This document shows, piece by piece, positions 20,985 through 29,411 of a DNA stretch of 64,000 nucleotides (position 1 is the first letter of the stretch; every line of letters begins with the position of its first letter). Origin of the DNA: Eggerthella lenta DSM 2243 (GTDB lineage Bacteria; Actinomycetota; Coriobacteriia; Coriobacteriales; Eggerthellaceae). The stretch covers positions 620,001-684,000 of the forward strand of contig NC_013204.1 in assembly GCF_000024265.1 (NCBI RefSeq), written 5' to 3'. The position numbers and the translations under genes are program-made. The notes under the pieces were generated by a model, which searched no databases, was not told where the DNA came from, and saw nothing but the letters and a program-made list of their open reading frames with translations.

Positions 20985-21065
20985 TTGCTTAAAGTAGGGC
21001 TGCGCATATAGTACAAAGTGCTAAGCGCCCGAACGGTACGCAGTTGCCTCCCTCGGGCGTTTTTT
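20985..21065 (+). ncRNA. Possible small RNA: promoter-like sequence followed at once by a terminator
   Basis: TTGCTT (20985-20990), 16 bp, TATAGT (21007-21012), then about 45 bp ending in a stem (CGCCCGA 21026-21032 with TCGGGCG 21053-21059) and six Ts. This would make an RNA of about 50 bases. Alternatively the stem is only a terminator for readthrough from C1. Confidence 0.35.
21026..21065 (+). terminator. Rho-independent terminator
   Basis: A 7-bp stem with a 20-base loop is followed by TTTTTT. It lies 18 bp from the 3' end of the convergent LuxR gene. Confidence 0.6.
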
Positions 21066-21082
21066 CATTTGAGGGCGTTATG

Positions 21083-22546
21083 CTACTCCCGCCCCTCGAT
21101 CACGTCCAGGAACTCCTGCTTGCTGTGGACGTCCATCTTTTGGTAGATGTGGCGCAGGTGGGTGGTCACCGTGCCGCGCGACAGGTAGAGGTCTTCCTGG
21201 ATGCGGGTGCTCGAGCGGCCCTTCGCGAACAGGATCATGATCTCGGTTTCCTTCGGCGACAGACCGTATTCCCCGGCCACGTCTTTGCAGCGGTCTTGGA
21301 AACGCTGGCGCCTCGGCTCGGCGCCGCCCTTGTCCTCATCGCCCTTCGCCAGCGCGATGAGGTCGTTCTCGTTGAACACGAACATGTACGAGATGAGGAT
21401 GGCCAGCGTGGCCAGCAGCGCGATCAGGCTGAGGCTCTGCGGCGAGAACGGCGCGAACGTGCACACGAACTGCCCCAGCGAGGAACCGAGCAGCACGCCG
21501 AGCGTCACCATGCCCCAGCCGATGCCGAACACCATGACGCCCGACAGCCGGTACGTGAACGAGATGTCGGCGAGCAGTATCCAGATGAGCACGTTGAACG
21601 TGCCGTAGCCGGCCAGCGCGATGGTGCTCTCGATCTCGGAAAAGCCGGTGAACACGGGCAGCAGCATGAAGAACACGGCCATGACCAGCATCACCGAGCG
21701 GTACACGGGACGTAGGCCCGTTTTGCTGGAGAGCAGCACGCAGCCGTAGACGATGGCGATGGTGAGCAGGCTCGACCAAAGGAGCGGGAAGCGGTAGAAG
21801 TTCTCGACGCTGGCCTCGTTCGCGGTGATGAACACCGCGCGCACCACGCCGTCGGCCATGCCGATGAGGCAGGCGCACACGCCGATCTTCCACGAGAACT
21901 TCCCCAGGTGGATCTCGAACGGCTGCACGACCGGCTCGGCTTTCGACGACCACGTCCTCAGCTTCACGAACAGAATCCAACCTGACGCGGCGGGCAGCAG
22001 CGCGCAGACCACGCACGCTCCGACGGGCGGCAAGGTCAGAACGGCGGGGAAGAGGGCCGCGGCGATCAGGAAGGCGAGCGGCGCTTCGAACGACGTGCGG
22101 CGGGGATCGACATTGCGGTACAGCTCGCCGTACCCCAGGTCGATGAGCCCCGATCCGGCGCCGGTCGATACCGAGCCGAACGCGCACAGCGCCAGCGCCG
22201 GTGCGCTCGGCAGGGTGGCGCAGGCGAGGGCCAGCGTGCCGACGGTGGTGAGGGCCGGGCCGAGGAAGCGGAACGCGCGATGGCCGATGAGCGCCGTGAA
22301 GCGCCGGTGGAAGATCGCGCTTGCGAACAGGGTCGCGCACAGCACGAGCGTCGATCCCAAGTAAGCCGCGCCGGGCAGCGGCTCGCCGTTCCACGTGATG
22401 GAGCTGGTGGCGGCGCCTAGGAACATGAGGTACACCCACGCGCGCGCCAGGGCGAAGCCGAGCATGCGCAGGTTCAACAGGCTGCGCGGCGCCGTCTCGC
22501 GCAGGCGATCCCGGGCGGTGGTCAGCGGTTTCGGCATGTGCGTCAC
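21083..22546 (-). CDS. Membrane-bound LuxR-family regulator, divergent from operon C2
   Basis: 487 residues with multiple hydrophobic segments over residues 25-400 and a C-terminal LuxR helix-turn-helix (LSPKETEIMILFAKGRSSTR, then GTVTTHLRHIYQKMDVHSKQ). The start is GTG 22546, eight bases after GAGGGGG; ATG 22537 is the alternative. The divergent position and the ATCATG-N7-CATGAT dyad in the shared upstream region point to control of C2. The membrane part is little like that of the C1 regulator beyond general layout. Confidence 0.9.
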   Translation of the reverse strand: MTHMPKPLTTARDRLRETAPRSLLNLRMLGFALARAWVYLMFLGAATSSITWNGEPLPGAAYLGSTLVLCATLFASAIFHRRFTALIGHRAFRFLGPALTTVGTLALACATLPSAPALALCAFGSVSTGAGSGLIDLGYGELYRNVDPRRTSFEAPLAFLIAAALFPAVLTLPPVGACVVCALLPAASGWILFVKLRTWSSKAEPVVQPFEIHLGKFSWKIGVCACLIGMADGVVRAVFITANEASVENFYRFPLLWSSLLTIAIVYGCVLLSSKTGLRPVYRSVMLVMAVFFMLLPVFTGFSEIESTIALAGYGTFNVLIWILLADISFTYRLSGVMVFGIGWGMVTLGVLLGSSLGQFVCTFAPFSPQSLSLIALLATLAILISYMFVFNENDLIALAKGDEDKGGAEPRRQRFQDRCKDVAGEYGLSPKETEIMILFAKGRSSTRIQEDLYLSRGTVTTHLRHIYQKMDVHSKQEFLDVIEGRE

Positions 22547-22670
22547 GAGAATTCCCCCTCAAGATCTCGATCCCCTGAGCCTCATTATAGCGTGCGCGAT
22601 CCGTCCGGCTCACGTGGCCCGATAGGTTGATGCGTGACGTCATGCTTTGCTCATCAGGTGTTTCTCCAAA

Positions 22671-22689
22671 ATCATGGGAAATGCATGAT
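22671..22689. promoter_or_regulatory. 19-bp dyad ATCATG-N7-CATGAT upstream of operon C2
   Basis: Perfect 6-base arms, 7-base spacer, 133 bp before the C2 start. A CATGAT half-site follows at 22728-22733, 44 bp further on, matching the C1 arrangement of one dyad plus one half-site. Confidence 0.6.
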
Positions 22690-22822
22690 GGGAAAGCCTC
22701 CGATTCGCCCGATTTTTTGCAGAAACGCATGATGCGCGGACGTCCCCTGCCGCGCATGCTCGAACAAAGCGGCGGGCGTTCTCGACGAGCCGTCGCAAGG
22801 ACGAGACGGAGAAGGAGGAGGA

Positions 22823-25800
22823 ATGGGAAAGCTCAATCTGACGCGCCGTGCGTTCACGAAGCTCACGGCCGTGACGGGTGCGGCGTTGGCCTGCGCGGCA
22901 GCGGTCGCCCCGAACGCGGCGCTGGCCGAAGATGCCGGAGCGGCCGCGCGCGGCGACGACGTGAAACGCGTGCGCACGTGCTGCCGCGGCTGCGGAAAGA
23001 TGGAGTGCGGCGTGTGGGTGACCGTGCAAAACGGCCGCGCTATCAAGGTGGAGGGCGACCAGTCGTCATTCCAGTCGAGCGGCAACTGCTGCGGCAAGTC
23101 GCAGTCGTCCATCCAGGCGGCGTACCACCCCGACCGCATCTACCATCCCATGAAGCGCACGAATCCCAAGGGCGAGGATCCCGGCTGGCAGCGCATCACG
23201 TGGGACGAGGCGATGGAGATCGTCGGCACCAAGTTCAACGAGCTGATGGACCGCTACGGCGGACAGTGCATCTTCAACATGGCGGGCACGTCGCGCCAGT
23301 GGGTGTACGGGCCCTACGCGTTCTACAAGTGGCTGTTCGACACGCCGAACGCGCACGTGGCGTCGGAAATCTGCAAGGGGCCGCGCCGTTTGATGGGGTG
23401 GATCAGCTCGGTCGACGGCGCGCCGTGGATGGCGCTGCGCGACGGGCCGCGCGTGTACGTGCAGTGGGGGACCGCGCCCGAAAACTCGAACTACGATGAC
23501 AGCTGCCGCAACCTCGTGGACAAGATGACCGAGGCCGACGTGCACATCTGCATCGATCCGCGCCTGTCCGGCTCGGGCAAGGAGGCCGACTACTGGCTGA
23601 ACCTGCGTCCCGGCTCCGACGGCGCGCTGGCGCTGTGCTGGCAGCACCTCGTCATCAAGAACGACCTGGTGGACTGGGAGTTCGTGAAGCGCTGGACGAA
23701 CTCGTCGTTCCTCGTGGTGGAGGACCGGGAGCCCACGGGCGGCCGCTACATCGACCTGTCCACGCCGCTCAACAACGCCGGCATCCCCGCCGACGTCGTG
23801 GGCACGAAGCTCAAGACGCGCCTGCTGAAGGAAAGCGATGTGGTGGAGGGCGGCAGCCCGCGCAAGTTCTACGCGTGGAACAAACTGGCCAACGACGGCG
23901 CCGGCGGCTTGGTGATGTGGGACGTCGACACCACGCAATGGGAGGGCTGCAACCACGTGGCCCCCACGCGCGACCAGATGGAGGTCGTGTACAAGGGCAC
24001 GTCGCAGGAGGGCTATTTGCCGCCGCTGTCCTATCACGAGCTGGAGGAAGCCGGCATCGACCTGGATATGCGTGGGACGCATGAGGTGGAGCTGCTCGAC
24101 GGTTCGAAGCACACGGCGAAGCCGGTGTGGGCGTACCTCGAGGAATCGGTGGCGGACTGCACGCCCGCGTGGTGCTCCGAGATCACGGGCCTCGATCCTG
24201 CGCTCATCGAAGAGGCGTGCCTCGTGTGGGCCACGCGTCCCGAGGGGCAGGATTACGGCAACGGCGGTATCCACCTGAACCTCGCGCCCGACCAGATCGG
24301 CAACTGCACGCAGACGGTGCGCGCGGTGCTGCACCTCATCTACATGACCGGCAACTTCGACACGCCCGCCGGCAACCGCGGCCTCACGCGCTCGCCCATC
24401 GACGAGCAGGCCACGGCCGCGCCCGGCTCGAACATGCCGCAGGAAGTGAAGGCCCAGCTGATCGCCTTGGGCGAGATCCCCGTGGAAGGCGTCACGCCCG
24501 ATCCCCTCAACGTGCCCGACCGCTACGACACGCTGTCGAACATGGTGGGCGCCGACGAGTTCCCCATCACGGCGTACTACAACGAGTGGGCCGACGCGAC
24601 GCGCATCTGGGACGCCTGCCTCACCGGCGAGCCGTACCCCGTGCGCGGCGGCATCAACGAGTCCGGCTCGTTCATGAACATGTCGAACGCGAACCTGGCC
24701 TGGGAGGCGTTGCAGTCGCTCGATTTCTGGGTGGACATCAACATGTTCCACCATCCCGGCACCGAGATGGCCGACATCCTGCTGCCGTGCCAGCATTGGC
24801 TGGAGATCAACAACATCCGCGTGTCGCAGGGCGCGTCCGGCGGTATCGGCGCCACCATCCGCGCGGTCGAGCCGCCCAGCGACACGAAGTTCGACTACGA
24901 CATCAACCGCCTGCTGTTCGACGCCGTGGGCGGCCCGAACGGAACCTGGACCAACATCGCGGGCGACGCGCCCGGCGGCTACCACGTGGACGAGCGCTTG
25001 GAGGACTGGTTCCAGAACAACTCGAAGACCAATCCCAAGGTGAAATGGCAGCATTGGGACGACTTCGTGGAGGACTTTCAGGAGAACGGCTGGATCAACG
25101 CCAAGGAGATCGAGCCCGACCGCTGGGGCACGTACCGCCGCTTCGAGACCGGCTGGATGCGCATCGGCAAGGACGCGTGCACCGGCTCCACGTTCAGCGC
25201 GGCGTTCGACGACGCCGGCAATCCGGTGAACAACTTCGGCTGCCCCACGCCGACGGGCCTCGTGGAATTTTGGCCGCTCGTGTTCGAGACGTACTGCGTG
25301 GACAAGGCGAACGAGTTCAACCCCGGCAAGTTCGACCTGGTGCACGAGATGATGCCGCACTACGACGAGCCGAAATCGGGCCCCAAGGGCGACGTGGACA
25401 TGAACGAGTATCCCATTATCCTCACCACCGGCCGCCGCATACCCGTGTACTTCCATTCCGAGCACCGGCAGCTGCCGTGGTGTCGCGAGCTGTGGCCGGC
25501 ACCGCGTTTGGAGGTGAACCCCGAAGACGCTGCCGAGCTGGGGCTCGAGCAGGGCGATTGGGCCTGGATCGAGACGGAGTGGGGCAAGGTGCGCCAGTGC
25601 GTCGATTTGTACTACGGCATCGCGAAGGGGTGGGCGAACGCCGAGCACGCCTGGTGGTTCCCCGAGCTGCCCGCGCCGACGCACGGGTTCGAGCTGTCGA
25701 ACATCGAGTGCATCTGGAACCCCTACGGCCAGGATCCGTTCATCGGGTCGTCCCACATGCGCGGCGTGCCCGTGAAGATATACAAGGCCACGCCCGAGAA

Positions 25801-25921
25801 CTGCCCCGACGGCAAGGTCATCCCCTGCGCGCCCGAGGACGGCACCGAGATCATCTACGATGCCTCCGACCCGCGCCTGAAGGAATGGCTGCCGAACTAC
25901 ACCATCCGAGAGGAGGCGTAA
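22823..25921 (+). CDS. C2: Tat-exported molybdopterin oxidoreductase, catechol-dehydroxylase type
   Basis: 1032 residues. Tat signal LTRRAFTKLT, then the 4Fe-4S motif (C54, C57, C62, C89 or C90) and the likely metal-ligand cysteine C184 in SEICKGPRRL. The C-terminal VYFHSEHRQLPWCRELWP and LGLEQGDWAWIETEWGKVR blocks match the other copies. Note that TEICKGPR-type residues differ in what follows (RRLMGW rather than RHFxx), so the active-site entrance may differ. RBS AAGGAGGAGG at ideal spacing. First gene of a three-gene operon. It likely removes a hydroxyl group from an aromatic compound; the substrate cannot be told from sequence. Confidence 0.9.
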   Translation: MGKLNLTRRAFTKLTAVTGAALACAAAVAPNAALAEDAGAAARGDDVKRVRTCCRGCGKMECGVWVTVQNGRAIKVEGDQSSFQSSGNCCGKSQSSIQAAYHPDRIYHPMKRTNPKGEDPGWQRITWDEAMEIVGTKFNELMDRYGGQCIFNMAGTSRQWVYGPYAFYKWLFDTPNAHVASEICKGPRRLMGWISSVDGAPWMALRDGPRVYVQWGTAPENSNYDDSCRNLVDKMTEADVHICIDPRLSGSGKEADYWLNLRPGSDGALALCWQHLVIKNDLVDWEFVKRWTNSSFLVVEDREPTGGRYIDLSTPLNNAGIPADVVGTKLKTRLLKESDVVEGGSPRKFYAWNKLANDGAGGLVMWDVDTTQWEGCNHVAPTRDQMEVVYKGTSQEGYLPPLSYHELEEAGIDLDMRGTHEVELLDGSKHTAKPVWAYLEESVADCTPAWCSEITGLDPALIEEACLVWATRPEGQDYGNGGIHLNLAPDQIGNCTQTVRAVLHLIYMTGNFDTPAGNRGLTRSPIDEQATAAPGSNMPQEVKAQLIALGEIPVEGVTPDPLNVPDRYDTLSNMVGADEFPITAYYNEWADATRIWDACLTGEPYPVRGGINESGSFMNMSNANLAWEALQSLDFWVDINMFHHPGTEMADILLPCQHWLEINNIRVSQGASGGIGATIRAVEPPSDTKFDYDINRLLFDAVGGPNGTWTNIAGDAPGGYHVDERLEDWFQNNSKTNPKVKWQHWDDFVEDFQENGWINAKEIEPDRWGTYRRFETGWMRIGKDACTGSTFSAAFDDAGNPVNNFGCPTPTGLVEFWPLVFETYCVDKANEFNPGKFDLVHEMMPHYDEPKSGPKGDVDMNEYPIILTTGRRIPVYFHSEHRQLPWCRELWPAPRLEVNPEDAAELGLEQGDWAWIETEWGKVRQCVDLYYGIAKGWANAEHAWWFPELPAPTHGFELSNIECIWNPYGQDPFIGSSHMRGVPVKIYKATPENCPDGKVIPCAPEDGTEIIYDASDPRLKEWLPNYTIREEA

Positions 25922-25925
25922 AGCC

Positions 25926-26591
25926 ATGACCCAGTACGCGATCGTCACCGATTTGAACCGGTGCGTCGGCTGCCTGGCCTGCATGGTTGCCTGCAAGGCG
26001 GTCAACAACGTGCCGGTGGGCAACTATTGGAACAAGGTGCTGCGCATCGGCCCCTCGCTGAAAGAGGGGGCCACGTCGTCGCACGACGTGGAGATGTACT
26101 ACCTGCCCGTGCAGTGCCAGCACTGCGCCGACCCCGAGTGCGTGAAGGTGTGCCCGACGGGCGCCTCGCACAAACTGGAGGACGGCACGGTGCAGATCGA
26201 CAAGGCGAAGTGCATCGGCTGCCAGTTCTGCGCGATGTCGTGCCCCTACAACGTGCGGTACCTGAACGAGGAAGAGGGCGTCGTGGAGAAGTGCACGCTG
26301 TGCGCGCAGATCGTGGGGCAGGGCGGGTTGCCGCAATGCGTCATCCAGTGCGGAGGGCGCGCCCGGTTCTTCGGCGATCTGGACCAGGGGATCGAGTCGT
26401 TCGAAGCCCCCGCCGTCGGCTACGACACCGATCGCACCTACGACGGCCTGTATGCAGGCAACCGCGTGACGCTGGGCGAGTTGGCGCAGGACTTCGATGC
26501 GAGCACCGATCTGCATCATCTGCCGAACGTCGGCAACGATCCGAACTTCGCGTTCATCCTGCGCAACCGCGACTGGAAGGGTGATGAATAA
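25926..26591 (+). CDS. C2: four-cluster ferredoxin subunit (DmsB-like)
   Basis: 221 residues with motifs CVGCLACMVAC, CQHCADPECVKVCP, CIGCQFCAMSCP and CTLC-x11-CVIQC. One difference from its paralogues is CTLCAQIVGQGG in place of CTLCEQKIAQGE. It lies 4 bp after the catalytic gene and shares one base with the anchor start (TAATG). It carries electrons from anchor to molybdoenzyme. Confidence 0.92.
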   Translation: MTQYAIVTDLNRCVGCLACMVACKAVNNVPVGNYWNKVLRIGPSLKEGATSSHDVEMYYLPVQCQHCADPECVKVCPTGASHKLEDGTVQIDKAKCIGCQFCAMSCPYNVRYLNEEEGVVEKCTLCAQIVGQGGLPQCVIQCGGRARFFGDLDQGIESFEAPAVGYDTDRTYDGLYAGNRVTLGELAQDFDASTDLHHLPNVGNDPNFAFILRNRDWKGDE

Positions 26592-27496
26592 TGGAACTCC
26601 AGTGGCCTTTGATTTTGTTCACCACGCTGGTTGCGTGGAGCGCGGGGCTGTTCGGGACGCAGGCGCTGATGGCGGTGTTCGGCGTCGGGAAGAAGGCGCA
26701 GGTGCCGGCGTGGGTTGCGTCGGCCGTCTTGCTGGCGGCCGGCGGGATCGCGGTGTTCTTCCACCTTGAGCACTGGGAGCGGATCTTCAACGGGTTCGGG
26801 CATTTGACGAGCGGGATCACGCAGGAGCTGATCGCGATCGTGGTGCTTGCCGTGGCCGCCGTGGCCTACCTCGTGCTCATGCGCAAGTCCGACGACGGCG
26901 CGAGCGTGCCGAAGTGGCTGGCGTGGCTGTCCGTCGCCTTGTCGGTCGTGCTGGTCGCCGTCATGGCGCACTCGTACACGATGGCCGCCCGCCCCGCTTG
27001 GGACTCGGCCCTCTGGATCCTCTACGTCCTCGGCAACGCCTGCGTGTTGGGCCCCGCGACGTTCGCCCTCCTCTCCACCTTGGCTGCAGGGGGACCCGCA
27101 GGTCAGCCCGCCGAGCGCGCAGCCGGCGCCGGGGCCCCCGCGGGTCTCGCGGCCCTCGCCGGCGCCGCCATCAACGCCCTCGCAACCCTCGCCTTCGCCG
27201 CCTTCCTCCAGCTCTCCGCCGGCTCCTTCGCCGACGTCGGCCTCTACTTCGACCCGACGCACCCCACGAAGGCCATGGCCGACGCCGCCGCGACGGTCGC
27301 CTCCCAGGCCCCGCTCCTGTGGCTGGGAGCGGTCGCCGTCGGCGCGATCGTGCCGCTGGCCGCCGCGTTCATGGGCAGGCGCACCGGCAACTGGAGGCTC
27401 TGGGCCCCGGCCGCCATAATCGCCGCCCTCGTCGGAGCCGTCTGCATGCGCGTCGTCTTCTACAACCTGGGGCTCTCGGTCTTCATGTTCTACTAG
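26591..27496 (+). CDS. C2: DmsC/NrfD-like membrane anchor subunit
   Basis: 301 residues, about eight membrane segments, almost the same as the C1 anchor except for a few positions (PAWVASAV instead of PAWVCSAV, and SVALSVVLV). Probable menaquinol oxidase subunit. The start overlaps the ferredoxin stop by one base, implying translational coupling. The 3' region has the GC hairpin and the loop-conserved hairpin but no parS-like site. Confidence 0.9.
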   Translation: MELQWPLILFTTLVAWSAGLFGTQALMAVFGVGKKAQVPAWVASAVLLAAGGIAVFFHLEHWERIFNGFGHLTSGITQELIAIVVLAVAAVAYLVLMRKSDDGASVPKWLAWLSVALSVVLVAVMAHSYTMAARPAWDSALWILYVLGNACVLGPATFALLSTLAAGGPAGQPAERAAGAGAPAGLAALAGAAINALATLAFAAFLQLSAGSFADVGLYFDPTHPTKAMADAAATVASQAPLLWLGAVAVGAIVPLAAAFMGRRTGNWRLWAPAAIIAALVGAVCMRVVFYNLGLSVFMFY

Positions 27497-27571
27497 CGCG
27501 TCCCCCGGGTCGCGCCTGCGGAGGCCCCTCCAACGAAGCAAGTCCCTCCGCAGGCGCACAGGGCGGCCCCG

Positions 27572-27638
27572 GCCCTCCTCGAGCGCGATTCGTCTCCCCA
27601 TACCCCCTTGCAAACGACGGATCGCTCTCGAGGAGGGC
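27572..27638. repeat. Hairpin element with conserved CCCCCTTGCAAA loop, copy 2
   Basis: The arms 27572-27594 and 27616-27638 pair over 23 bases with two exceptions. The 21-base loop TCCCCATACCCCCTTGCAAAC minus its last base matches the other copies. It lies only 5 bp from the inverted-repeat promoter of the next gene. Confidence 0.65.
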
Positions 27639-27643
27639 TTTGC

Positions 27644-27737
27644 CAATGCTTTCATTAACGATAGATTTGAATTTTGACAATCCTCGATAGCCGTTCTATA
27701 CTATCGAAATAAAAATCTATCGTTAATGAAAGCATTG
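27644..27737. promoter_or_regulatory. Promoter enclosed by a 25-bp perfect inverted repeat
   Basis: The arms 27644-27668 and 27713-27737 are exact reverse complements (left begins CAATGCTTTCATTAACG). The 44-bp interior holds TTGACA (27674-27679), a 17-bp spacer and TATACT (27697-27702), a near-consensus sigma-70 promoter pointing at the kinase gene 4 bp beyond the right arm. A smaller CGATAG/CTATCG pair overlaps the -10. It is either an invertible promoter or an autoregulatory operator pair. Confidence 0.75.
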
Positions 27738-27741
27738 ACAC

Positions 27742-28623
27742 ATGGAACTGATCGATTTCTCCCTCTATGAGCGCGGCTGGATAAACTACGGAGGCTCGGA
27801 GCGCAAGGAATCCATCCTTGTTCCCAACGGCGACGGAACCTTCAGTGACTACATGCTCAAATTTCGCAAACGCACGCCTTTCGGCATGAGGTACAACCAC
27901 GTTTCCGAATACCTCGGCTCGCATATCTTCGAGCTGCTTGGATTCGATGCCCAAAAGACCTTCCTCGGCACATTCGAGGGCGAGGACGTGGTTGCCTGCA
28001 AGAGCTTCGTAGGCGCGGGCGAACAGTTCGTCCCGTTCAACGATGTGGGCGAGAGCACGCTCGACCAGGATAAGGAACGGTATCAATACGAATACGCGGA
28101 CATCATGCAGATGCTTCGCGACAATTCGAAGCTCGTCGATGTATCGGGGACGATCGCAATGTTCTGGGAGATGTTCGTTGTCGATGCGCTCCTCGGAAAT
28201 TTCGACCGGCATGGAGCCAACTGGGGATTCGTCAAGCGGAACGGAGCTTATTCGCTCGCGCCGACCTTCGATAACGGCTCGTGCCTGTTCCCCGCGCTTG
28301 TCGACGAGGACGAGATGGAGCGCGTCATGGAATCGGAAGACGAGACGGCGAAGCGCGTATACGGGTTCCCCACTTCTCAAATCCGGTTGCGCGGGCGGAA
28401 AAGCTCGTACTACGACGTCGTGTCCAGCTTGGAATTCGACGAGTGTAATCGAGCCCTGCGAGAGGTCATGGAGCGTATGGATTTGGAAGCGGCTCATCAG
28501 CTCGTGCGATCCGTTCCGAACATAAGCGATCGGCGCAAGGAGTTTTACTGCCATATGCTCGATGCGCGCTATCGGGTCATTCTGGAAGCCCCCTATTCGG
28601 ACCTGGTGAGGAGGGGCGCATGA
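27742..28623 (+). CDS. HipA-type (HipT/CtkA-like) serine/threonine kinase
   Basis: 293 residues. It lacks the HipA N-terminal subdomain but has the kinase core: a Gly/Ser loop (YGGSERKES, about residues 16-24), a lysine in YMLKF (K40), the catalytic loop GNFDRHGANWG (D155) and the metal-binding PTFDNGS (D177). These match HipA-family kinases, whose targets include aminoacyl-tRNA synthetases and whose action slows growth. The short core-only form resembles HipT of the three-part HipBST systems or CtkA. It overlaps the next gene by 4 bp (ATGA). The promoter lies inside a 25-bp inverted repeat. It is not related to the respiratory operons on each side and looks inserted. Confidence 0.82.
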   Translation: MELIDFSLYERGWINYGGSERKESILVPNGDGTFSDYMLKFRKRTPFGMRYNHVSEYLGSHIFELLGFDAQKTFLGTFEGEDVVACKSFVGAGEQFVPFNDVGESTLDQDKERYQYEYADIMQMLRDNSKLVDVSGTIAMFWEMFVVDALLGNFDRHGANWGFVKRNGAYSLAPTFDNGSCLFPALVDEDEMERVMESEDETAKRVYGFPTSQIRLRGRKSSYYDVVSSLEFDECNRALREVMERMDLEAAHQLVRSVPNISDRRKEFYCHMLDARYRVILEAPYSDLVRRGA

Positions 28624-29411
28624 GGGAATCGACGACTACGGGGATGATCAGCCTCGATGGTCCCGGGGGCCTGGTATACGAGGTGGGGGCGATCACGTAC
28701 CTGGTGCGCGAGGACGAGTCGTTTCGCTATACGTTCGTTCCGAATTGGCCGGTGATCGATTTGCTCGAGCCCCCGCTTTTCCAGGGGGTGCCGGGGTACG
28801 ACCTGTCGTTGCGCAAGACGGAATACGTGCGCGAGAACGTCACCCCGACGTTCGTGAGCGAGCGGGCGCCGTCCGAGAGCCGCGAGGGCTTGTGGCAGCT
28901 CCTCGATGCATGCGGCATGGAGTACCTCGACAAGATCGAATGGCTCATCAGGACGGATACGCGCTACATAGGAGATGGCTTGTACGTTCGGCCATTTGAA
29001 GAACGCGAGGTCGGTGCCGATGTCGACGTGGCCGACGCGATCGCGGGCGCCGCGAACTCCGAGCAGGCTGCAAGAGCGGTGCTTTCGGCGCTGTGCCGAG
29101 GCGATGCCCTCTTTCTGAACGGCGAGCCTATTGCCGACAGCGAGCGCAAGGTGCTGCACGACGTCCTTCTATCCATGTACGAGAAGGCGTATCGCGCGCG
29201 CGAGGAGAAGCGCATCTCGGGCGTGCGCGCGGCTGCCGAGCGGGGCGCGTACAAGGGCCGCAAGCGCAAGCCGATGGACGAACTTGTGCTGCGTGAGGTG
29301 GTTTCGAGCTATGAAGCGCGCGAGCTGGATGCCGAAGAGGCGGCGGCTCGGCTCGGCGTGAGCGTCTCGACGTTTTTCCGGAGACTGAAAGAGCTTCGGT
29401 TGCAAGGGTAA
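28620..29411 (+). CDS. Putative antitoxin: HipA N-subdomain (HipS-like) fused to a resolvase-type helix-turn-helix
   Basis: 263 residues. Residues about 10-128 resemble the small N-terminal subdomain of HipA (VTPTFVSERAPSESREGL, then a LLDACG and RTDTRYIGDG segment), which in split systems is the separate protein HipS. The C-terminus (about 185-263) looks like the end of a serine recombinase: AREEKRISGVRAAAERGAYK, GRKRKP, then a helix-turn-helix EEAAARLGVSVSTFFRRLKE. No recombinase catalytic domain (no YSRVST-type N-terminus) is present. It probably neutralises the kinase and binds the inverted-repeat promoter. Gene order kinase-then-antitoxin is the reverse of HipBST. Confidence 0.65.
   Translation: MRESTTTGMISLDGPGGLVYEVGAITYLVREDESFRYTFVPNWPVIDLLEPPLFQGVPGYDLSLRKTEYVRENVTPTFVSERAPSESREGLWQLLDACGMEYLDKIEWLIRTDTRYIGDGLYVRPFEEREVGADVDVADAIAGAANSEQAARAVLSALCRGDALFLNGEPIADSERKVLHDVLLSMYEKAYRAREEKRISGVRAAAERGAYKGRKRKPMDELVLREVVSSYEARELDAEEAAARLGVSVSTFFRRLKELRLQG

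Follow-up and report, generated by a model that had tools for sequence, protein, structure and literature searches.

Two overlapping genes on the Eggerthella lenta DSM 2243 chromosome probably form a type II toxin-antitoxin module, in which a lid on the product of the second gene, B, would block the kinase encoded by the first, A, and a resolvase-derived tail on B would repress the operon. The genes lie within a 64,000-nucleotide stretch of contig NC_013204.1 (positions 620,001 to 684,000 of the forward strand; hereafter the window) in an assembly that consists of a single contig of 3,632,260 bases. Gene A (27742..28623, forward strand) encodes a core-only HipA-type Ser/Thr kinase of 293 amino acids, the putative toxin. 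Gene B (28620..29411, forward strand) encodes a 263-amino-acid fusion of a HipS-like domain and a resolvase-derived DNA-binding half, the putative antitoxin and autorepressor. Four computed results carry this reading: the fold match of the N-terminal domain of B, the missing catalytic half of its resolvase part, the conserved gene order and the conserved sites at the promoter. In the features that we tested, A–B agrees with a pair of the predicted hipMP kind, a likeness drawn from the description in the main text of Gerdes et al. 2021 (PMC8262856).

Gene A encodes a kinase core that retains its active-site residues

The product of A matches HipA_C (PF07804) above the curated cut-off (E 9.4e-15) and the PADLOC candidate defence kinase PDC-M03A (E 7.9e-27). 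Its nearest solved structure by sequence is CtkA (PDB 3akj), matched over residues 29-286 (E 1.6e-44). Because the Gly-rich loop (YGGSERK, residues 16-22) sits so close to the N-terminus, A has no space for the N-subdomain of HipA. The kinase retains K40, D155, N160 (GNFDRHGANWGF) and D177 (within FDNGS), all four being unchanged across the 13 aligned A sequences, the window counted; by analogy, they may play the same roles as in HipA. Residue 19, within the Gly-rich loop, is Ser or Thr in every one of the 13 sequences and Ala in the more distant loci L120-L122. The length of 293 amino acids and the motifs at 17-22, 40, 155, 160 and 177 fit a short hipMP-type kinase without N-subdomain-1. A and B are read from the same strand with the kinase gene 5', and their reading frames share four bases (an ATGA overlap). 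A search of NCBIfam at the A/B locus gave no match above its cut-offs.

The C-terminal half of B derives from a small serine resolvase

Residues 126-260 of B (28995..29399, forward strand) correspond to the second half of a small serine resolvase, comprising a remnant of the catalytic domain, the long helix and the helix-turn-helix (HTH), as indicated by profile search, Foldseek and tail matches. Using hmmsearch, a profile of 11 B sequences aligned B residues 126-256 with residues 53-180 of the gamma-delta/Tn3 resolvase (1gdt/5cy1; E 4e-4); B differs from this resolvase in lacking the catalytic half and in being fused to a HipS-like domain. Resolvase residues 1-52 have no counterpart in B. In the resolvase, Ser10 and the arginines of the DRLGR stretch are catalytic. 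This stretch falls opposite s-e-l-g-n in the B consensus, from which the arginines are missing; L024 alone among the 11 rows has an arginine where the second DRLGR arginine falls.

Foldseek placed a serine recombinase–DNA complex (2r0q, E 5e-3) first for the whole-B model, and small serine recombinases from the same bacterial family have tails that match B residues 178-260. PF00239 is present in three of three such recombinases scanned and gives no match in B. Between the long helix and the HTH lies the sequence GRKR (residues 213-216; 29256..29267, forward strand), to which we assign, by analogy, the role of a resolvase-like arm; all 11 aligned B sequences, the window counted, have G213 and R214. 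Judged from its sequence, the resolvase part of B is apparently a truncated, catalytically dead module.

The N-terminal domain of B probably has a HipS-like fold

B residues 5-127 (28632..29000, forward strand) were assigned a fold like that of HipS and the HipA N-subdomain from a VIA alignment of a 129-residue model and a partial match to PDC-M03B. AlphaFold2 gave a mean predicted local distance difference test (pLDDT) score of 77.6 for whole B, modelled from the 11-sequence alignment, and of 67.4 for residues 1-129 alone. When the top 1000 Foldseek chains for the latter model were realigned by VIA, HipS/HipA structures occupied ranks 1-7, with Z-scores of 8.0 to 5.8, and the next row stood at Z 4.4. 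The best matches were 8ezr_A (Z 8.0, 100 of the 101 residues of HipS, 3.9 Å) and 7vkb_B (Z 7.9, 101 residues, 3.9 Å), the second of which is titled merely 'bacterial kinase complex' and was taken for HipS. The five further entries, at Z 7.1-5.8, comprise three titled HipA and two titled 'MDT protein', which we take to be HipA as well. With the whole-B model, the same HipS/HipA families were recovered over residues 2-129 at Z 5.0-5.9. The PDC-M03B match (E 4e-5) covers B residues 28-170 and model positions 25-161 of 245. No Pfam family matched B above its cut-off, and Foldseek gave no match at E ≤0.001 for either the whole-B or the N-domain model. Since the structure matches while sequence methods fall short of HipA, we regard a shared HipS/HipA N-subdomain fold for residues 5-127 as likely, not proved.

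These results bear on a preliminary description of the same DNA, which had proposed a split HipA-type kinase overlapping a HipS-like protein with a recombinase-type DNA-binding part. The two frames lie exactly where it had placed them, with the ATGA overlap, and the split kinase is borne out by the PF07804 and CtkA matches, the retained active-site residues and the lack of space for an N-subdomain. The fold of B residues 10-128, on which it had staked its HipS-like domain, agrees by structure; sequence methods show no link. Its recombinase-type part had to be redrawn: the recombinase origin stands, but not an HTH alone, since the homology starts near residue 126, within what used to be the catalytic domain.

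Inverted-repeat sites recur at the A–B promoter

Upstream of A, a sigma-70-type promoter (TTGACA-17-TATACT; 27674..27702, forward strand) has 11 of 12 consensus bases. The promoter region (27644..27737) lies between perfect 25-bp inverted repeats at 27644-27668 and 27713-27737, and its sequence pattern suggests two operator-like sites, each a 34-bp inverted repeat. Site 1 (27648..27681) lies over the -35 box and site 2 (27700..27733), as drawn, overlaps the final three bases of the -10 box. Both resemble resolvase subsites in length and shape. Across the whole genome, one spelling of site 1 has a single occurrence. We rejected the idea that the upstream repeat represents the ends of an insertion element: the repeat brackets the promoter, and relatives show the same layout.

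The half-site pattern, TC[AG][AT][AT] opposite its complement and 22-27 bases end to end, was drawn by eye from these promoters, so that the shuffle counts for the first 16 loci are after the fact. With this pattern, two sites within 120 bp were found in 11 of 11 Coriobacteriia loci (among them three near-identical genomes of one genus), against 0-17 per 1000 shuffles each. One site was found in all five Clostridia loci (four titled Butyrivibrio or Lachnospiraceae, one Eubacteriaceae), against 58-136 per 1000 shuffles. Five of six held-out promoters carried a site: L105 had two, L120-L123 had one each, and L124, in which the B tail is lost, had none. In these six promoters the one-site pattern arises in 44-163 per 1000 shuffles, and since it is this common a single-site promoter is weak evidence alone. 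Across the window, the two-site pattern occurs in one of 1065 tiles, at the A–B promoter alone; it occurs in 7 of 516 tiles of the other Coriobacteriia loci, promoters counted, and the one-site pattern in 53 of 840 tiles of the Clostridia loci. These tile counts may miss site pairs that straddle tiles, as happened in L025.

Gene order is conserved and B outlasts A

Of 138 genomes in the window's bacterial family, 12 have full-length B, including three of four genomes of the genus; so do 6 of 299 genomes sampled for the family to which the Butyrivibrio genome with L025 belongs. Set aside from these counts were tail-only matches (residues ~178-260), which represent ordinary recombinases, and L104, whose contig ends before any A. 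A scan of GTDB contigs with the B alignment gave 11 loci from 105 candidates, of which three (L028-L030) are the G019/G025 loci counted already. The same scan with a single B protein confirmed no relatives among 215 candidates. No B relative was confirmed among 31 candidates from viral contigs, and none was found in the phage and plasmid records searched.

At 13 of 13 measured junctions, A precedes B on one strand, with an overlap of 4 or 11 bases or a gap of 4-15 bases, and the order is kept in the more distant loci L120-L123. Because it recurs in relatives from both Coriobacteriia and Clostridia, the pairing is no chance arrangement. Within the window's family, a full-length A of at least 58% identity occurs in 10 genomes and B adjoins it in all 10, B being clipped by the contig end in G472. 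The family also has many related kinases, for the most part sharing 30-37% identity with A, that have no B found alongside (L016-L019 and L066-L079).

B is also found where A is lost. The genomes of L023 and L025 have B and lack A (at E 1e-10), and these orphan B genes keep sites at their own promoter, two good ones in L025 and one in L023. The two L025 sites, upstream of 4001, are about 60 bases apart and near reverse complements of each other, with a third, weaker match. In G019, two B copies lie next to a 107-amino-acid A remnant that still has two operator-like sites, and in L036 B lies next to a 123-amino-acid A remnant. L123 (2391-3281) keeps a full-length B and an operator-like site, and its adjoining A has lost the catalytic motifs (a pseudokinase). 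In L124, the broken B contains, near its start, a stretch that by eye is bordered by inverted repeats.

A sister class carries an XRE tail

A second fusion partner was found in a related genome at L014 (1297-2749), where a core-only HipA-type kinase is followed by an overlapping gene for a 196-amino-acid HipS-like and XRE-HTH fusion; L127-L141 are further loci of this class. The HTH of the L014 fusion is of XRE type (PF01381, E 5e-12). Its N-domain and that of B are 27% identical over 97 residues by BLASTP (E 1e-7, a single comparison), and a profile–profile comparison of the B and XRE-fusion N-domains gave E 5e-9, with 0.004 for the reversed control. Of 16 loci examined, 14 have a related kinase adjoining the XRE fusion, and among these the L141 kinase lacks the DR[HN] motif. 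The text of PMC8262856 contains no two-domain HipS-like–XRE antitoxin.

In a tree of 52 kinases, comprising 21 of 21 resolvase-tail rows (three near-identical and one with a broken B), 14 of 16 XRE rows and 17 of 18 solitary rows (those with no B found alongside), the three groups need two changes only, and the kinases thus sort by partner type. Support for the resolvase-tail kinases as one side of a branch is just 75/86. Distances between A and B sequences are correlated (r 0.88, 19 pairs), but this was not used as evidence because joint inheritance predicts it. Here, then, the HipS-like lid appears with at least two kinds of tail, resolvase and XRE, and published work joins it to HIRAN.

Relation to described Hip systems

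The preliminary description knew of no described system with this layout, a claim that did not hold. Gerdes et al. (PMC8262856) predict hipMP, in which the gene downstream of a short HipM kinase encodes HipP, a putative antitoxin that resembles gamma-delta resolvases; they postulate HipP to be an antitoxin and possibly a DNA-binding autoregulator. Their hipIN (kinase first, then a HipS-like and HIRAN partner) and hipJS (kinase first, then HipS) are kinase-first as well. The kinase-first order that the preliminary description had claimed is itself seen in the window and in relatives, and the genome search it had called for recovered the same two-gene order in Coriobacteriia and Clostridia. According to PMC8262856, the HipG, HipI, HipJ and HipM kinases have 279-321 amino acids, the HipM subclade is close to HipG in clade XI, and Table 1 gives no experiment for this clade. 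The conclusion of that paper names HipJ as the kinase with a resolvase partner, whereas its body names HipM.

A–B shares with hipMP the short core-only kinase encoded first, the downstream gamma-delta-resolvase-like putative antitoxin and a Ser in the Gly-rich loop (S19 of A). It differs in that the main text of PMC8262856 describes neither a HipS-like domain in HipP nor an operator; HipS-like domains are there assigned to HipN, HipS and HipL. With hipIN and PDC-M03, A–B shares the kinase-first order and an antitoxin composed of a HipS-like N-domain and a DNA-binding tail, and A matches PDC-M03A. In contrast, the tail of B is resolvase-derived, and no HIRAN family was found in B at E up to 1. 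Positions 125-220 of PDC-M03B, which match proteins widely, we take to be HIRAN, and PDC-M03 to be hipIN.

In hipBST of E. coli O127 and Legionella, as in A–B, the kinase is separate from the N-subdomain, which there is the HipS antitoxin. Here, however, there are two genes and not three (hipB-hipS-hipT), the kinase precedes the antitoxin, no separate HipB is present and the tryptophan of HipS (Trp65) is not evident. The two hipBST studies (PMC10627512, PMC9325769) report that HipS is the antitoxin in both systems and blocks ATP binding through the Gly-rich loop of the kinase. E. coli HipS inserts its Trp65 next to the Gly-rich loop of HipT, a residue that, as PMC10627512 notes, some HipS proteins lack. 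With hipBA, A–B shares the kinase family and the expectation of an autoregulated pair, but there a small-HTH HipB lies upstream of a full-length HipA. CtkA of Helicobacter pylori, the nearest solved kinase by sequence, has been studied as a host-acting kinase.

Our search of the open-licence PMC literature found no experiment on hipMP and no other paper on the resolvase-tail Hip kind, nor any paper on PDC-M03 or on CtkA with HipA. Compared with the text of PMC8262856, the HipS-like lid on a resolvase-type antitoxin looks new, since HipP is given no such domain there, and so apparently do the truncated resolvase module, the inverted-repeat sites at the promoter and the XRE sister class.

Genomic setting

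By eye, the A–B pair comes after a DMSO (dimethyl sulphoxide)-reductase-like (dms) unit and before a LuxR-type gene on the opposite strand. Such dms-like units, also recognized by eye, occupy window positions 20990-27587 and repeat on to about 35900. Just ahead of the locus, a repeated stretch at 27569-27640 forms, by eye, an inverted repeat. In L102 (G002:C1, contig positions ~755765-755933), a decayed second copy of the B tail, 85% identical to B at the DNA level over ~150 bases, follows another dms unit, which suggests that the hip pair was formerly duplicated together with a dms unit.

Proposed mode of action and alternatives

In the toxin-antitoxin reading, which we consider probable, free A would phosphorylate something essential and thereby arrest growth. 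The HipS-like domain of B would dock on A at the position of the HipA N-subdomain and, by analogy with HipS of hipBST, prevent ATP binding. The C-terminal resolvase half would dimerise and bind two ~30-bp inverted-repeat sites, one covering the -35 box and the other at the -10 box. B would thus repress its own operon, either by itself or in company with A. Were the level of B to fall, the promoter would open and the kinase would be freed, possibly in the service of phage defence, stress tolerance or self-maintenance. A DNA-binding autorepressor fits the loci in which A is lost while B and the sites stay, and the absence of sites from L124, where the B tail is lost.

Several points weigh against this reading. 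Toxicity, the kinase target, inhibition, dimerisation, DNA binding and repression are all steps that we infer. The model of B residues 1-129 is of modest confidence, with pLDDT below 50 at residues 76-91, 98-100 and 111-118, and the VIA tool cautions that a Z-score below 8 can reflect just a common arrangement. Neither HipS nor HipA is among the top 50 matches listed by Foldseek for the whole-B and N-domain models. B was unmatched by Couple_hipA (PF13657) at E up to 10 in 26 genomes searched, and this family is absent among the matches listed (25 of 38 families) for 11 B members. Profile–profile comparison of the B N-domain with 18 HipA N-domains was colinear but not significant (E 0.087), and with reversed controls at 0.26 and 0.28 it is therefore no evidence on its own. 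Trp65 of E. coli HipS has no evident counterpart in the corresponding B loop (PSES), the alignment being weak, and because of this the kinase contact in B may differ from that in HipS. In a rigid test with arms of 12 bases, the window promoter did not stand out (54 of 100 shuffles were as good); the two-site score was clear (0-6 of 100 shuffles) in 5 of 14 promoters, those of L035, L037, L036, L005 and L022. Finally, L124 (1190-1830) has an A with intact motifs next to a broken B that is open over the HipS-like part alone, which speaks against a toxin because a lethal one should not permit an intact kinase beside a broken antitoxin.

The pair might instead be an abortive-infection module, its kinase inhibited until phage infection and then hitting an essential target so that phage growth stops. 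We regard this as possible, though on the doubtful side. A and the N-terminal part of B match PDC-M03A and PDC-M03B at the E-values given above, the spread of B is patchy (12 of 138, 6 of 299 and three of four genomes, as above), and HIRAN-type relatives are flagged as predicted defence genes in PMC11706625. However, PDC-M03B ends in a part, taken for HIRAN, that is absent from B; the neighbours look metabolic (dms-like, by eye), unlike those of a defence island; and B was on no phage or plasmid record searched.

It seems unlikely that A–B is a regulatory kinase switch and no toxin at all, with B bringing the kinase to DNA and A phosphorylating B or another regulator to set expression. L124, with its intact-looking kinase next to a broken B, would suit such a switch, as would the many related kinases of the family that have no adjoining B (17 of them in the tree). 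Yet B persists without A, and a close full-length A never occurs without B in the family, which is the toxin-antitoxin pattern; HipS, moreover, is the antitoxin in both hipBST systems studied.

The tail of B keeps the resolvase dimerisation helix and a DNA-reading HTH, which makes it conceivable that B senses incoming mobile elements, and we give this only slender odds. Contact with foreign serine recombinases, through mixed dimers, or with foreign res-type sites acting as decoys would then strip B from both operator and kinase, and a transposon, phage or conjugative element that enters the cell would thereby release the kinase.

That B is a working recombinase, inverting or resolving DNA at the two sites and so phase-varying the kinase, we rejected as having next to no likelihood: the paired sites are resolvase-like inverted repeats with perfect 25-bp arms in the window, but the catalytic half is absent, resolvase residues 1-52 and the DRLGR arginines having no counterpart in the B consensus, PF00239 is missing from B and present in all three family recombinases scanned, and the promoter has the same orientation in three genomes of the genus.

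The toxin-antitoxin reading gives hipMP, so far a prediction, a testable anatomy at the A–B locus: a kinase-blocking domain, a DNA-binding domain and the exact bases that the latter may bind. A recombinase has apparently been reduced to a DNA-binding module and reused as a repressor tail. Together with the XRE sister class, this points to the HipS-like lid being a unit joined to varied DNA-binding tails. If B does sense mobile elements, the HipS-like lid with its swappable tails (resolvase, XRE or HIRAN) would amount to a plug-in design that sets which invader a Hip kinase watches for.

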